This document shows, piece by piece, positions 2,082 through 19,410 of a stretch of DNA of 64,000 bases; positions within the stretch are counted from its first letter, which is position 1; every line of letters starts with the position of its first letter. Position numbers and translations under genes: made by a program. Below the pieces are notes generated by a model. It did no database searches. It worked only from the letters and a program-made list of their open reading frames with translations, and was not told the origin of the DNA. The stretch spans positions 1,886,501 to 1,950,500 of the forward strand of contig NZ_CP123622.1 of assembly GCF_029873255.1 (NCBI RefSeq). Reading direction: 5' to 3'. This DNA comes from Pigmentibacter sp. JX0631. Its GTDB lineage: Bacteria; Bdellovibrionota_B; Oligoflexia; Silvanigrellales; Silvanigrellaceae.

Positions 2082-2527
2082 TCTACTTCCAAGTTAATAG
2101 AAAATTCTTTATCATCATCAAAGCTATTAGCAGTAATTAGTTTGCCTTTGTGTCTGGCTATTATTTTAATTACCGTTTTTCCTTTGCCTATAAATGAAAA
2201 CTTATATACTAAATTTCCACTTGCCCCCATAGTAATGCTTGTCGGTTTGCAGCAGTTGCTTTTTCCTTCAAACTTTACCATTGAATTCATATAACGCGGA
2301 TCTAAATAGTTATACGAAGTGGTGCTAATGTCTCTGATAACAACTGCTATTTTATCATCTTGATCAACTTTTAATGAAACTGTATCTTTATCAACAGCAT
2401 CGATAATCTCGTAACCTTGGTAGTCTTCTTCATTTGGTAAAACGTAGGTTTTAGATGTAGATGAACAACTTGAGAATAAAAGTGCGGTAGAAAAACATAA
2501 ACCAGTGAGAGTAAATAATTTTTTCAT
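2078..2527 (-). CDS. Putative lipoprotein of unknown function
   Basis: I do not recognise a family. The 149-aa product starts MKKLFTLTGLCFSTALLF and continues SSCSSTSK, a lipoprotein signal peptide with the probable modified Cys at about residue 21 (-3 Phe, a slightly atypical lipobox). The mature part is polar and strand-rich, ending near SFDDDKEFSINLEVD; a beta-sandwich is possible but not shown. The start at 2527 has AAAGGC upstream and is the only one that exposes the signal peptide; the open frame runs further upstream without a better signal. The stop overlaps that of smpB by 4 bp, so the 3' ends of the two transcripts should be complementary. Confidence 0.75.
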   Translation of the reverse strand: MKKLFTLTGLCFSTALLFSSCSSTSKTYVLPNEEDYQGYEIIDAVDKDTVSLKVDQDDKIAVVIRDISTTSYNYLDPRYMNSMVKFEGKSNCCKPTSITMGASGNLVYKFSFIGKGKTVIKIIARHKGKLITANSFDDDKEFSINLEVD

Positions 2528-2628
2528 AGCTATGCCTTTATAATTAGCAAAATTTTGAATCTTAATACTCGAAGACAAATAGACCTTTATCATTGAGAAT
2601 AAAGGTCTATTTACATTCATTTTAATGA

Positions 2629-3273
2629 TTAACTAACACTACAAGTTAATTTAGAAAGGGATTCCTTTCCGGTAGACATAACAGAGTCCCAAGAGCGACG
2701 AGCTTCGTCACCTTGAAATTCTTCATCATATGTTTCAAGTAAATCTTGAATGCCATCAGCATCTTCAAGTAGACTTAGAGCGTTTACAGCAGAGCGAAAG
2801 TATCTAGCAGCTTCATTTGGATGACGTTTGACTTTTAAACACAAACGACCCATTTCTTCATACCATTGTGCTTTTTCTTCAGGCAAAGCATATTCGCCAC
2901 TTTCACCTAATAAATAAATATAAGAGTTTAAAGCTCTTACATGATCCCTTGCTGCGATCATTTCAGCAATTTTTGGTGAAAGTGTTTGGATAGTCTTTCT
3001 GGCTCTAACTTGTTCTCTTCTTTTGTCTTCTAAACTCTCTTGAGAGTTTCTCTCTATGATTCTTTCACAATAAGCTTTCAAGAGGCGCAGATCTTCTGGA
3101 AGAACTTGATCGCGTTCTGTTTCCAAAGTTGGGTTTATTTGACGAAATAAACTCAGTAATTCAGGTGGTTGTACATGTAGATAACTAGCAAGCACTTGAA
3201 TCGCCCAAGGCCTTTCATCTGGCCACACTCTTTCAGCTCGTTCCATTTGCCTTATCAGTTCGTGCATATCCAT
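2629..3273 (-). CDS. Hypothetical alpha-helical, TPR-like protein
   Basis: Soluble 214-aa protein with no signal peptide and no recognised family. It is almost entirely helical and rich in Arg, Glu and Leu. Residues ~95-200 contain helix pairs that resemble degenerate tetratricopeptide repeats (for example ALNSYIYLLGESGEYALPEE and AARYFRSAVNALSLLEDADG), which would suggest a scaffold or adaptor role; this is inference. The start at 3273 is chosen because AAGGAG lies just upstream; an in-frame ATG at 3297 lacks such a site. It follows the long intergenic region 3274-3757, where its promoter must lie. Codon use looks less AT-biased than in the neighbours, as in well-expressed genes here. Confidence 0.75.
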   Translation of the reverse strand: MDMHELIRQMERAERVWPDERPWAIQVLASYLHVQPPELLSLFRQINPTLETERDQVLPEDLRLLKAYCERIIERNSQESLEDKRREQVRARKTIQTLSPKIAEMIAARDHVRALNSYIYLLGESGEYALPEEKAQWYEEMGRLCLKVKRHPNEAARYFRSAVNALSLLEDADGIQDLLETYDEEFQGDEARRSWDSVMSTGKESLSKLTCSVS

Positions 3274-3380
3274 AGCTTCTCCTTGATGGCTTTTCATCTT
3301 AGTAATTACAATACAGCAAACAACAAGCTCAAAAAACTTTCAGCAACAAATACATGCGACTTTAGCTCGCAATGGTCAAG

Positions 3381-3504
3381 ACAATTTTTTGGCTTCCTGA
3401 AATTTTTGTTTAGAAGGTTGACTTTAAAACGTTCTTGAATTGAAATTTCACTTTATTCTAGAAGATCTTTTTTATGGACATCTATCGACAACAATTTTTT
3501 GGCT
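3381..3504. repeat. 14-bp direct repeat, two copies
   Basis: ACAATTTTTTGGCT occurs at 3381-3394 and again at 3491-3504. It is AT-rich, so chance is possible; both copies lie between the start of the helical protein gene and the sigma-54-type promoter. Confidence 0.4.
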
Positions 3505-3553
3505 AACCTAAAAATAATGATGAGTTAACCCTTAACAGTGCGGGAGTCTCTCA

Positions 3554-3636
3554 TTTGCGACATTTTTGCAAAGAGTGGGTCATAAATGACACAGTCTTAG
3601 AAAATTTGTTCCTTATTGAATGAAGTAATGTCGCGA
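3554..3636. promoter_or_regulatory. Inverted TGTCGC half-sites upstream of the sigma-54-type promoter
   Basis: TTTGCGACATT (3554-3564) is an inverted copy (10 of 11) of AATGTCGCGAA (3627-3637). The first copy also sits in a small palindrome, TTTGC-N9-GCAAA (3554-3572). They lie about 20-100 bp upstream of the -24 element. That is a plausible place for enhancer-binding activator sites, although the nearer copy would be unusually close. The assignment is inference. Confidence 0.4.
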
Positions 3637-3655
3637 ATCTCAAATAGTAAGTTGA

Positions 3656-3673
3656 TTGGCATGATTTTTGCTT
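3656..3673 (+). promoter_or_regulatory. Sigma-54 (-24/-12) promoter for the 71-aa gene
   Basis: TTGGCATGATTTTTGCTT matches the sigma-54 consensus TGGCAC-N5-TTGCW at all positions but one. GG at 3658-3659 and GC at 3670-3671 have the required 10-bp spacing. Transcription would start near 3683, giving a leader of about 75 nt before the ATG at 3758. Confidence 0.65.
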
Positions 3674-3757
3674 AAGGGAAAATGTTTCTATTATTTCTTT
3701 TCATCTGAACAAAAAAGTGAAAAGAAGTATATTTAAATCTTTTTTGGAGTGATCTAA

Positions 3758-3973
3758 ATGCACACACTTTTGAATACCATTAAAAATATAAGCCAATCAC
3801 CAAATTATAATTCGTCAGCTAATATGACAAAGGTAATTGCGGAAAATATTTTTAAGGATTTACGAGCATATGGTCTTGCTGATAAAGACATAGTAGCTAT
3901 TTCATCTGAGATATTGAATAAATTAACTGACGATTTAAAAAGTCGGAATGAAAGAAGTCAAGCTGAGACCTAA
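3758..3973 (+). CDS. Small 71-aa protein of unknown function
   Basis: I do not recognise it. A good ribosome site (TTTGGAG) lies about 10 nt before the ATG, and a hairpin terminator starts 17 nt after the stop, so it looks like a genuine one-gene unit. The product is hydrophilic, without signal peptide or membrane segment. It is predicted to form two or three amphipathic helices (MTKVIAENIFKDLRAYGL and VAISSEILNKLTDDLKSR), compatible with a small DNA- or protein-binding factor. The sigma-54-type promoter at 3656 implies control by an activator ATPase and a specific signal. No neighbour hints at its role. Confidence 0.7.
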   Translation: MHTLLNTIKNISQSPNYNSSANMTKVIAENIFKDLRAYGLADKDIVAISSEILNKLTDDLKSRNERSQAET

Positions 3974-3990
3974 GATTATATAAAAAAGAA

Positions 3991-4013
3991 GGAGCCTGAT
4001 TTTGGCAGGCTCC
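3991..4013. terminator. Bidirectional hairpin terminator
   Basis: GGAGCCTG (3991-3998) pairs perfectly with CAGGCTCC (4006-4013) around a 7-nt loop. On the plus strand CGTTTT follows; on the minus strand TTCTTTTTT follows. It can end the 71-aa gene and is the better terminator for the H1-like gene arriving from the other side. Confidence 0.8.
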
Positions 4014-4050
4014 CGTTTTGGTAGGACAGACTAAATCTGTTAATTCGAGG

Positions 4051-4084
4051 AGCAGGATAAACTTTTTGGTTATCCTGCTTTTTT
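4051..4084 (+). terminator. Second plus-strand terminator, overlapping the end of the H1-like gene
   Basis: AGCAGGATAA (4051-4060) pairs perfectly with TTATCCTGCT (4070-4079), followed by a run of T to 4084. The stop codon of the minus-strand H1-like gene (4070-4072) lies inside the 3' arm. It probably catches read-through from the 71-aa gene. Confidence 0.65.
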
Positions 4085-4420
4085 GAGATGCTTATCTGCG
4101 CTCTTTTTTGCAACAACTTTTCTAGCTGTTCTTTTTGCAGATTTTTTAGTGCGTTTTCTACGAGTTTTAGTTGTAGAAGAAGCTTTGGTTTTACGTCTTT
4201 TTGTAGACGTTTTCTTTGCAGACGTTTTACGTCTAGTCTTTCTTTTTTTAGTGCCTGTAGCTTTTTTAGTTGAGCGTTTAGCTCTTGTTTTTCTACCAGC
4301 AGTTTTAGTAACTTTCTTCCGTTTTTTTCTAGTTACTTTTGATTTCGTAGTTTTTCTACGTTTTTTGCCAGCAGATACTTTTTTTGCTGTACTGGCTTTT
4401 TTTCTTCTGCGTACCACCAT
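4070..4420 (-). CDS. Histone H1-like, Lys/Arg-rich DNA-binding protein
   Basis: 116-aa protein, starting MVVRRRKKASTAKKVSAGKK, made almost only of Lys, Arg, Thr, Ser and Ala, with repeated AKK, TKK and RRKT motifs. It resembles the tails of eukaryotic histone H1, chlamydial Hc1/Hc2 and AlgP-type proteins, which bind DNA without sequence specificity and compact the nucleoid. It should be intrinsically disordered. The ATG at 4420 has GAGAGGA upstream; a longer frame to 4465 adds unrelated residues. Its stop codon is inside a plus-strand terminator hairpin. Apparent frames on the opposite strand are compositional shadows. A role in DNA is inferred from charge; RNA binding is possible. Confidence 0.85.
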   Translation of the reverse strand: MVVRRRKKASTAKKVSAGKKRRKTTKSKVTRKKRKKVTKTAGRKTRAKRSTKKATGTKKRKTRRKTSAKKTSTKRRKTKASSTTKTRRKRTKKSAKRTARKVVAKKSADKHLKKAG

Positions 4421-4448
4421 AAGTATTCCTCTCTCATCATTGGTGATG

Positions 4449-4460
4449 ATGTAATTACAT
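4449..4460. promoter_or_regulatory. 12-bp perfect palindrome upstream of the H1-like gene
   Basis: ATGTAATTACAT at 4449-4460 lies about 30 bp upstream of the ATG at 4420. Position and symmetry fit a dimeric repressor site, but it is AT-rich and may be chance. Just beyond, two related segments ending GACGCG occur at 4469-4484 and 4499-4514. Confidence 0.35.
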
Positions 4461-4666
4461 GCCACATGGCGTCATCTCGACGCGGACTAACGCAAAAGGC
4501 ATCTTCACGACGCGTATACATTGCGCTTCACTTTTATATCGACATCTGTAAAAATACCTTGAGTTTATTTTAGAAGACTCATTGCGCACCTAACATAAAT
4601 TTGGCATTTGTGCTTAAAAATTTAGTTAAACTAGTATATAATATAACAGTAATTATAAAGGCTTAT

Positions 4667-5566
4667 ATGAAAAAAATGATTTTTGAGCAACATTCTTTTA
4701 TCCCAAACGGAGAAACAAAGTTTTGTTTTTTATTTGGCTCAAATATTAAGCATTCACTCTCTCCCGAAATGCATTCTACTTGGTTTAGAAAACAACATCA
4801 AAATTCTATATATTTGCCATTAGAAGTAATTGAAGGAAAAACATTTCTTTCATTAGTAAAAAATTTAATAAACTCCCGAAATTTTATAGGGGCAAATTTT
4901 ACCTTACCTTTTAAAAATTTAATTTTAGAAGATAAAGATTTGATTAGATCAGAAATTGTTGAATGTGTTTCTTCGGCAAATACTCTTTATTTAAATCCTC
5001 ATGGCAAATGGGCATTAGAAAATACAGATATTTTGGGGATTAGAGAATCGATTAAGTATTTAAATAAAGAAAATAAACCTTTTAGTGTAATTTTACTAGG
5101 GGGTGGAGGAGCTGCAATAAGTGTAATTTATGAAAGTGTAACAAATAATTTATGTAATCATATTCATGTATTTACAAGAACACCTGATAAGACTTTAAGT
5201 AATTTTCCTTTCATTGAAAAACAAAAAAAACTAGCATTATACAATATTGAAGATTTAAATCATGCAAAAATAAAAGAAATGTTAAAAAGAGATGATAAAA
5301 TAATTTTAATTAATACTCTCCCTTTAGGTGGAGAAAAAAAAGAAAGCTTACATGGAAGTTACTTGGAAGAAAATACATATGCTAATGATGTTTTATTGCT
5401 AGCAAAAAAGACAGAAATTAGTTACTTTGATTTAATTTACTCTGATACAAAACCAATAAATCTAGCGAAAAAAATTGGAATTAATTCTATCAATGGTGAA
5501 TTGATGTTAAGGACACAGGCAAAAGAAAGTTTTTATTTGTGGACGGGAATCAAAGTTAAGGATTAA
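4667..5566 (+). CDS. aroE: Shikimate dehydrogenase
   Basis: NADP-dependent reduction of 3-dehydroshikimate to shikimate, the fourth step of chorismate and aromatic amino-acid synthesis. The N-terminal substrate domain has FGSNIKHSLSPEMHSTWF and GANFTLPFKN (usual GxNVTxPxK, containing the catalytic Lys). The Rossmann part has LLGGGGAA and INTLPLGG (usual NTxPxG), and the C-terminal helix has LRTQAKESFYLWTG. Length 299 aa is slightly above average. The start at 4667 follows AAAGG by 5 nt; a TTG upstream in frame has no ribosome site. A TATAAT-like -10 occurs near 4638. The 3' end overlaps the convergent aminotransferase gene by 11 bp. Confidence 0.9.
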   Translation: MKKMIFEQHSFIPNGETKFCFLFGSNIKHSLSPEMHSTWFRKQHQNSIYLPLEVIEGKTFLSLVKNLINSRNFIGANFTLPFKNLILEDKDLIRSEIVECVSSANTLYLNPHGKWALENTDILGIRESIKYLNKENKPFSVILLGGGGAAISVIYESVTNNLCNHIHVFTRTPDKTLSNFPFIEKQKKLALYNIEDLNHAKIKEMLKRDDKIILINTLPLGGEKKESLHGSYLEENTYANDVLLLAKKTEISYFDLIYSDTKPINLAKKIGINSINGELMLRTQAKESFYLWTGIKVKD

Positions 5567-19110: not shown

Positions 19111-19186
19111 GGCCCTATCGTCTAGAGGCCTAGGACACCGCCCTTTCACGGCGGTAACACCGGTTCGAATCCGGTTAGGGTCACCA
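19111..19186 (+). tRNA. tRNA-Glu (anticodon TTC), copy 1
   Basis: Cloverleaf of 76 nt with encoded CCA. Acceptor GGCCCTA pairs with TAGGGTC (one G-U). Anticodon stem CCGCC/GGCGG encloses loop CTTTCAC, anticodon TTC. T stem ACCGG/CCGGT encloses TTCGAAT. A promoter lies upstream and a strong terminator 16 bp downstream, so it is its own transcription unit. Confidence 0.97.
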
Positions 19187-19202
19187 TTCATTCCTTGTAA
19201 GT

Positions 19203-19237
19203 AAAAAAAACCAACCTAATTAGGTTGGTTTTTTTTT
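19203..19237 (+). terminator. Terminator after tRNA-Glu copy 1
   Basis: AACCAACCTAA (19209-19219) followed directly by its exact complement (19220-19230), flanked by A and T runs. A strong terminator with stem extended by A-T pairs. Confidence 0.92.
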
Positions 19238-19333
19238 GTCTTTAAATCTACTCTGTTAATAAATGTTTATCTTGTTGCATTGTATGAAAAATATCTTTTT
19301 GCTACAGATTAAAACTTAATAGTCGTTTTTTCT

Positions 19334-19410
19334 GACCCTTTCGTCTAGCAGGTCAAGGACATCATCCTTTCACGATGGGAACATGGGTTCAAATCCCGTA
19401 AGGGTCACCA
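19334..19410 (+). tRNA. tRNA-Glu (anticodon TTC), copy 2, divergent sequence
   Basis: Cloverleaf of 77 nt with encoded CCA. Acceptor GACCCTT pairs with AAGGGTC. Anticodon stem TCATC/GATGG (one G-U) encloses CTTTCAC, anticodon TTC. T stem ATGGG/CCCGT encloses TTCAAAT. It has the same anticodon loop as copy 1, but most stem pairs differ, so it is not a recent duplicate. No terminator separates it from the HAD gene 49 bp downstream. Confidence 0.95.

Follow-up and report, generated by a model that had tools for sequence, protein, structure and literature searches.

An apparent sigma-54 promoter with paired upstream dyads precedes a conserved small-protein gene in Pigmentibacter

What switches on a gene for a protein of only 71 residues, and to what end, is the question raised by a locus of Pigmentibacter sp. 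JX0631 within a stretch of 64,000 nucleotides (contig NZ_CP123622.1, positions 1,886,501 to 1,950,500; hereafter the window). An earlier note, made from the sequence alone, had placed a sigma-54 promoter and inverted TGTCGC half-sites ahead of this gene, called it an orphan closed by two terminators, and suggested activator control in a specific response, for example flagellar, nitrogen, or envelope stress. We compared the locus (Table 1) with 58 genomes of the class, which are also our phylum-level set. The explanation that we favor, and consider probable as a whole, is a monocistronic, signal-responsive gene with a sigma-54 promoter and an activator of the bEBP type that would act at paired upstream dyads.

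Table 1. Features of the locus, in positions of the window.
Feature	Position	Strand	Basis
Divergent 222-aa gene	2629-3297	-	Neighbor comparison
Upstream dyad 1, AGTCTCTCATTTGCGACA, TGT-N12-ACA with one mismatch	3545-3562		Pair scan, aligned conservation
Upstream dyad 2, TGGGTCATAAATGACACA, TGT-N12-ACA with one mismatch	3576-3593		Pair scan, aligned conservation
Putative sigma-54 -24/-12 promoter, TGGCATGATTTTTGC	3657-3671	+	Genome enrichment and conservation 5' of the gene
Predicted 5' untranslated stretch	3683-3757	+	Placed from the sigma-54 site
71-aa gene, small helical protein family	3758-3973	+	Open reading frame, homologue searches, synonymous changes, AlphaFold2
Terminator-like hairpin (either direction), with the better T run on the minus strand	3991-4013		Hairpin scan and folding
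Second hairpin, AGCAGGATAA...TTATCCTGCT, into a T run	4051-4084	+	4045-4086 folds at -18.3 kcal/mol

The 71-residue protein and its surroundings

The open reading frame proposed earlier is borne out by comparison with close relatives, among whose copies synonymous changes dominate. In G002 (locus L002) the protein is identical and 12 codons differ, all of them synonymously; the copy in G006 differs from that in the window by 31 synonymous and 2 non-synonymous codons. A single-sequence protein search found homologues in 34 of 56 genomes and a profile search in 36 of 58, the genome itself included in both counts. Each of these 36 genomes carries one copy, and the gene is thus no orphan in the sense of having no relatives. 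Most E-values of the profile search are flattered because the profile was built from the members found by the single search; those for G056 (1.2e-21) and G015 (2.7e-10) are independent of it. The core of the family, at about residues 24–62, reads K..A..IF.DL...G..DKDIV.ISSE.L..LT.DL.

Neither the protein of the window nor any of 26 family members matched a Pfam or NCBIfam family above the curated cut-off, the best E-values being 0.016 and 0.022, respectively. An AlphaFold2 model made with three sequences has helices at residues 3–12, 20–37, and 42–70 (mean pLDDT 76.7, pTM 0.51), and the protein is predicted to consist mainly of two helices. Fold comparison yielded no PDB match at E ≤ 0.001, and Z was at most 6.0 among 110 re-aligned chains; this lies within the range of common helical arrangements, and the fold search was uninformative. 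The profile likewise had no match below E 0.41 among PDB sequences. A pattern search of viral contigs gave 11 matching stretches, none of which is a relative, and plasmids gave no match to the one family member searched. The two long helices could also suit a Spo0E-like aspartyl-phosphate phosphatase acting on a response regulator, and SS[EQ]L[IL] in the family resembles the SQELD motif of Spo0E. This identity is nevertheless very improbable, since PF09388 was not among the 12 Pfam families matched by any of the 26 members up to E = 1, and the alignment is hydrophobic (Ile, Leu) at the site of the catalytic Asp.

For the comparison of neighbors, homologues were grouped by clustering, and Pfam names were assigned from G020 only. 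Families are labeled f1 to f13; f1 is that of the window (Silvanigrellaceae), and f2 contains the sole further genome searched from its order. Neither Pfam nor NCBIfam has a match up to E = 1 for the 222-aa protein, whose homologues are divergent from the small gene in all five order-level loci compared, and aroE lies near it in the four of these that belong to f1. Loci from other families, of which we retrieved 16, differ: in 14 of them the phosphatidylserine decarboxylase of G020 has a homologue upstream on the opposite strand, mostly adjoined by a pyruvate kinase homologue. Also nearby are homologues of a GIDA-family protein, presumably TrmFO (gene trmFO), in 11 loci, and of triosephosphate isomerase, phosphoglycerate kinase, and glutathione synthetase in 7 each.

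Downstream of the gene, both hairpins that had been called terminators are real, but the first has a poor T run on the plus strand, of four T only. Since its T run on the minus strand is better, this hairpin may act chiefly for the gene that converges from the other side. The second hairpin proper spans 4051–4079, with the T run extending to 4084; its loop exceeds the length covered by our hairpin scan, which missed it, and it was found by folding. The convergent gene (4070–4465, minus strand) encodes a small, histone-like protein very rich in Lys, Arg, and Thr; Pfam has nothing for it up to E = 1, and its only NCBIfam match is far below the cut-off. Across the whole window, Rfam found only tRNAs at gathering scores; two tRNA-Glu(TTC) genes stand in tandem, 147 bases apart, at 19111–19410.

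The −24/−12 element and its variants

The earlier note had based its promoter on a GG-N10-GC spacing fit for sigma-54, and this holds. Within TTGGCATGATTTTTGCTT (3656–3673), GG at 3658–3659 and GC at 3670–3671 are separated by 10 bases, and the element listed in Table 1 matches TGGCAY-N5-TTGC. Given this spacing, transcription would be expected to start near 3683, with +1 placed 12 bases after the −12 C. The pattern occurs 20 times in the 3.65-Mb genome, compared with once for the control pattern read backwards, and it exceeds the reversed control in 58 of 58 genomes, the smallest ratio being 1.36-fold. The promoter ahead of the 71-aa gene looks real, and the element would be used by sigma-54.

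The machinery for such use is present. The rpoN domain was found in 55 of the 58 genomes, including this one (PF04552, E 3.1e-62), which also has ten matches to the bEBP domain PF00158, six of them strong (E ≤ 1.4e-36) and four weak. Because rpoN is so widespread, its co-occurrence with the gene across the 58 genomes has no power to show an association; two genomes with the gene in which the rpoN domain was not seen are G014 (74% complete) and G022 (91% complete). In the open-licence literature we found nothing on sigma-54 in Silvanigrella or on sigma-54, promoters, or rpoN in Bdellovibrio, and for Oligoflexia together with RpoN only work on SixA.

Nine of the 20 genomic sites, that of the window included, lie outside predicted open reading frames of at least 60 aa. 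Six open reading frames behind the eight others were scanned in Pfam; two had no family, and the remaining matches were TssB of the type VI secretion system, a GDSL lipase, a lysozyme-like protein, and, barely above the cut-off, leukocidin. These products agree with the literature, in which sigma-54 is described as controlling the bacterial exterior (PMC3162934). One of the sites lies 96 bases 5' of tssB, the type VI secretion sheath gene (L043, 1501–1515; G000:C1:2707573), about 4 kb from a bEBP gene (L104). Another lies 59 bases 5' of the gene for a 485-aa protein (L033, 1501–1515; G000:C1:487687), whose Leukocidin/Hemolysin match has an E-value of 6.1e-5 and which is probably exported.

Conservation in relatives, proposed earlier as a check, speaks for the element. 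Of 34 loci, one per genome, 25 had TGGYAYN5TTGN within 300 bases 5' of the gene; resampled sequence gave 0.25 such loci on average and never more than 2 (here, as for the words and dyad pairs below, by first-order Markov resampling rather than exact shuffling). Additional matches came from G005, in relaxed form (CGGCAT), and from G056 and G015, both outside profile building, which brings the count to 28 of 35 informative genomes; G049, with an upstream sequence of 85 bases only, was excluded. All 11 Silvanigrellaceae that carry the gene keep GG and GC (in one of them CGG replaces TGG), as does the only further member of the order examined, and the TTGC form is present in 12 of 12 Silvanigrellales genomes that have the gene. 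The 16 matches from genomes outside Silvanigrellales instead have TTGT (14) or TTGA (2). Compared with canonical sigma-54 promoters, which combine TGGCAY-N5-TTGC with an enhancer-like pair of dyads upstream, the promoter in the window shows no difference, whereas the loci of other families depart from the canonical form at the −12 base, although TTGC is the enriched form there, too: it exceeds the control in each of the 16 genomes whose own gene has TTGT or TTGA.

The variant base bears on whether the gene might have an ordinary sigma-70 promoter, with GG-N10-GC being incidental. A sigma-70-like match of 9 out of 12 bases (TTGGCA-16-GAAAAT, 3656–3683) overlaps the promoter in the window. Against this reading, a scan of 2500–5500 gave fewer sigma-70-like sites than shuffled sequence did (7 versus 11.8). 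In 10 of 15 non-redundant loci outside Silvanigrellales, the hexamer starting exactly at the −12 base reads TANNNT, compared with 0–3 loci at 25 other offsets; yet no −35 accompanies it, the best in those 15 loci reaching at most 4/6, and what is conserved is GG and GC with N10 rather than a −35 hexamer. Moreover, in the 11 Silvanigrellales loci listed, the −12 hexamer begins with C and is never TANNNT. The seven of 35 informative genomes that carry the gene without a −24/−12 match have to be considered as well. Their six non-redundant loci (L079, L080, L081, L082, L083, and L084; L066 was dropped as a duplicate of L065) are also without exact dyads, and judged by eye, TTGTA seems to be left at the expected place with GG gone in three of them (L079, L083, and L084; by genome G020, G026, and G048), contrary to a pure sigma-54 prediction. 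Taking these points together, we hold a purely sigma-70 promoter to be improbable. Since TTGT or TTGA mostly coincides with a sigma-70-like −10 (TANNNT), however, the gene probably has basal sigma-70 expression outside Silvanigrellales, as for E. coli glmY, for which an overlapping sigma-70 promoter is reported (PMC6075780).

Outside Silvanigrellales, TGGYAY...TTGTA might also be the operator of a transcription factor and no promoter at all. In f4 the element is palindromic or nearly so: at L019 it forms the perfect inverted repeat TGGTAC-N7-GTACCA, from which L017, L021, and L022, of other f4 genomes, are one base short. The palindrome breaks down in other families, however, and the element is spaced just like the canonical sigma-54 form of Silvanigrellales, with the dyad pair common to both groups. 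Genome-wide counts of TGGYAYN5TTGTA cut both ways, hardly exceeding the control in the f4 genus g8 (46 versus 28), in f5 (45 versus 34), and in f6 (36 versus 34), but standing above it in the genus of the window (94 versus 31, summed over 8 genomes). We consider an operator at these loci improbable.

Upstream dyads and a candidate activator

Where would an activator bind? The words named in the earlier note are present in the window, GCGACA at 3557–3562 and TGTCGC at 3629–3634, and none of 2000 resamplings of 3451–3655 produced two or more such words. The word was chosen after the fact, however, and inverted 6-mer pairs are common in this stretch anyway (11 pairs, against 8.6 on average after resampling). 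Both words are absent from the 330 bases ahead of the gene in the 10 other Silvanigrellaceae loci, the relative with the identical protein included, and inverted TGTCGC half-sites are therefore a most improbable activator site. GCGACA is instead the right arm of a conserved TGT-N12-ACA dyad that the earlier note did not contain; in the genus of the window, the alignment shows conservation of a stretch that closes with GACACA or a similar sequence.

When exact TGT-Nk-ACA was counted for k from 4 to 30, the peak was at k = 12, with 10 of 15 loci outside Silvanigrellales and 4 of 10 in f1 (14 of 25 in all), followed by k = 10 with 5 of 15 and 3 of 10, respectively. Upstream of the −24 element, the window has no exact TGT-N12-ACA; it has two copies with one mismatch each, 31 bp apart. 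As single sites with one mismatch are frequent at all spacings, pairing alone is informative. Pairs with k = 12 and a distance of 31–36 bp, a range picked after inspecting the one-mismatch sites, are present in 11 of 15 other loci and 5 of 10 Silvanigrellaceae, where resampling gave 0.63 and 0.39 on average, with maxima of 4 and 3, respectively; their distances cluster at 31–33 bp. Pairs with k = 10 were found in 9 of 15 and 3 of 10 loci, probably from TGTGTC-type arms that match twice, and no other k exceeded 4 and 2. These dyad counts leave out L005 and L063, near duplicates of L004 and L030, respectively, and the order-level locus L027. Elsewhere in the genome, such a pair is absent from the 200 bases upstream of all 19 remaining TGGCAYN5TTGC sites. 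The activator control proposed earlier would thus find its sites in the paired dyads rather than in the half-sites. Another candidate site, TGTCTCWT, had been read from four loci; in six other Silvanigrellaceae loci it has 18 matches (resampling mean 2.5, with 0 of 1000 reaching 18). It is better accounted for as part of the TGT-N12-ACA dyad, which extends to other families as well.

For QseF/GlrR, the activator of glmY in E. coli, the consensus given in the literature is likewise TGT-N12-ACA (PMC6075780). Our positive control, E. coli K-12 glmY, contains GG-N10-GC and three exact dyads, of which two are spaced by 33 bp. The locus in the window resembles glmY in having paired dyads upstream of a GG-N10-GC promoter; it differs in that its output is a small protein rather than a small RNA, in a different phylum, and in that each dyad is off by one base. 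Loci outside Silvanigrellales differ further by GT (or GA) at −12.

Among the bEBPs of the genome we found no clear GlrR orthologue. The closest to GlrR of the six strong ones is L099 (36% over 454 aa), which scores 332 bits against the GlrR model NF011695 (cut-off 763); the match of this genome to the GlrR helix-turn-helix is weak (4e-4). The best score of L099 is with NtrX, at 469.7 bits, and like NtrX-type regulators its gene follows that of a histidine kinase (HisKA and HATPase above the cut-off, PAS below), but the score stays under the NtrX cut-off of 600 bits; a gene for a protein with an LPG_synthase_TM domain comes next. Across 35 genomes, presence of an L099 orthologue and of the −24/−12 motif gave counts of 25/2/3/5 (Fisher p = 0.003, post hoc and uncorrected for kinship), with orthology defined by at least 46% identity, a threshold set after viewing the list, and with G042 partial. 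As the genomes are related, this association is a lead only, and the NtrX-like regulator (G000:C1:1778886-1780322) is our best guess, a candidate activator only. A search with the helix-turn-helix of GlrR found matches in 29 of 58 genomes, the best in f10, where 7 of 7 genomes lack the small gene; weaker ones (from 4.4e-13) also occur in genomes that have it.

A predicted switch and what it may mean

In the mechanism that we propose, sigma-54 RNA polymerase would bind the −24/−12 element and wait there until a hexameric bEBP, probably phosphorylated by a sensor kinase and bound at both dyads, reaches the promoter by looping and opens it. Transcription would start near 3683 and yield a short RNA that encodes the 71-aa protein and ends at the hairpins between 3991 and 4084. 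As far as sequence can indicate when the gene is expressed, the protein, which we picture largely as a hairpin of two helices whose N-terminal part varies among members, would be a small adaptor or regulator made in stress, most likely touching the state of the envelope or of membrane lipids. For the envelope stress named in the earlier note, support is indirect, from the match of the dyad to the QseF/GlrR consensus and from the divergent phosphatidylserine decarboxylase homologue in 14 of the 16 loci of other families; an envelope-stress adaptor is a speculative role that we think rather unlikely to be the right one.

The likeness to glmY suggests a broader picture, which we put forward tentatively as possible, though doubtful in its full extent. 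The locus would belong to a phylum-wide, glmY-like stress module with a protein as its output and a dedicated bEBP at the paired dyads, in which GC at −12, in Silvanigrellales, would make the promoter strictly dependent on sigma-54 and GT, in other orders, would admit both sigma-54 and sigma-70, so that one −12 base sets the leakiness.

The locus offers a conserved, unnamed family of small proteins together with experimental handles on it, namely a promoter, a probable enhancer, and a candidate activator. A predicted activator-gated switch that goes with a tiny-protein gene kept in many relatives makes a good target for work on function. How activator-gated sigma-54 promoters gain or lose basal sigma-70 activity has so far been studied largely in mutants and in a small number of enterobacterial promoters. 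Provided that the GC/GT difference at −12 is functional, orthologues of this gene would form a natural series for this question.
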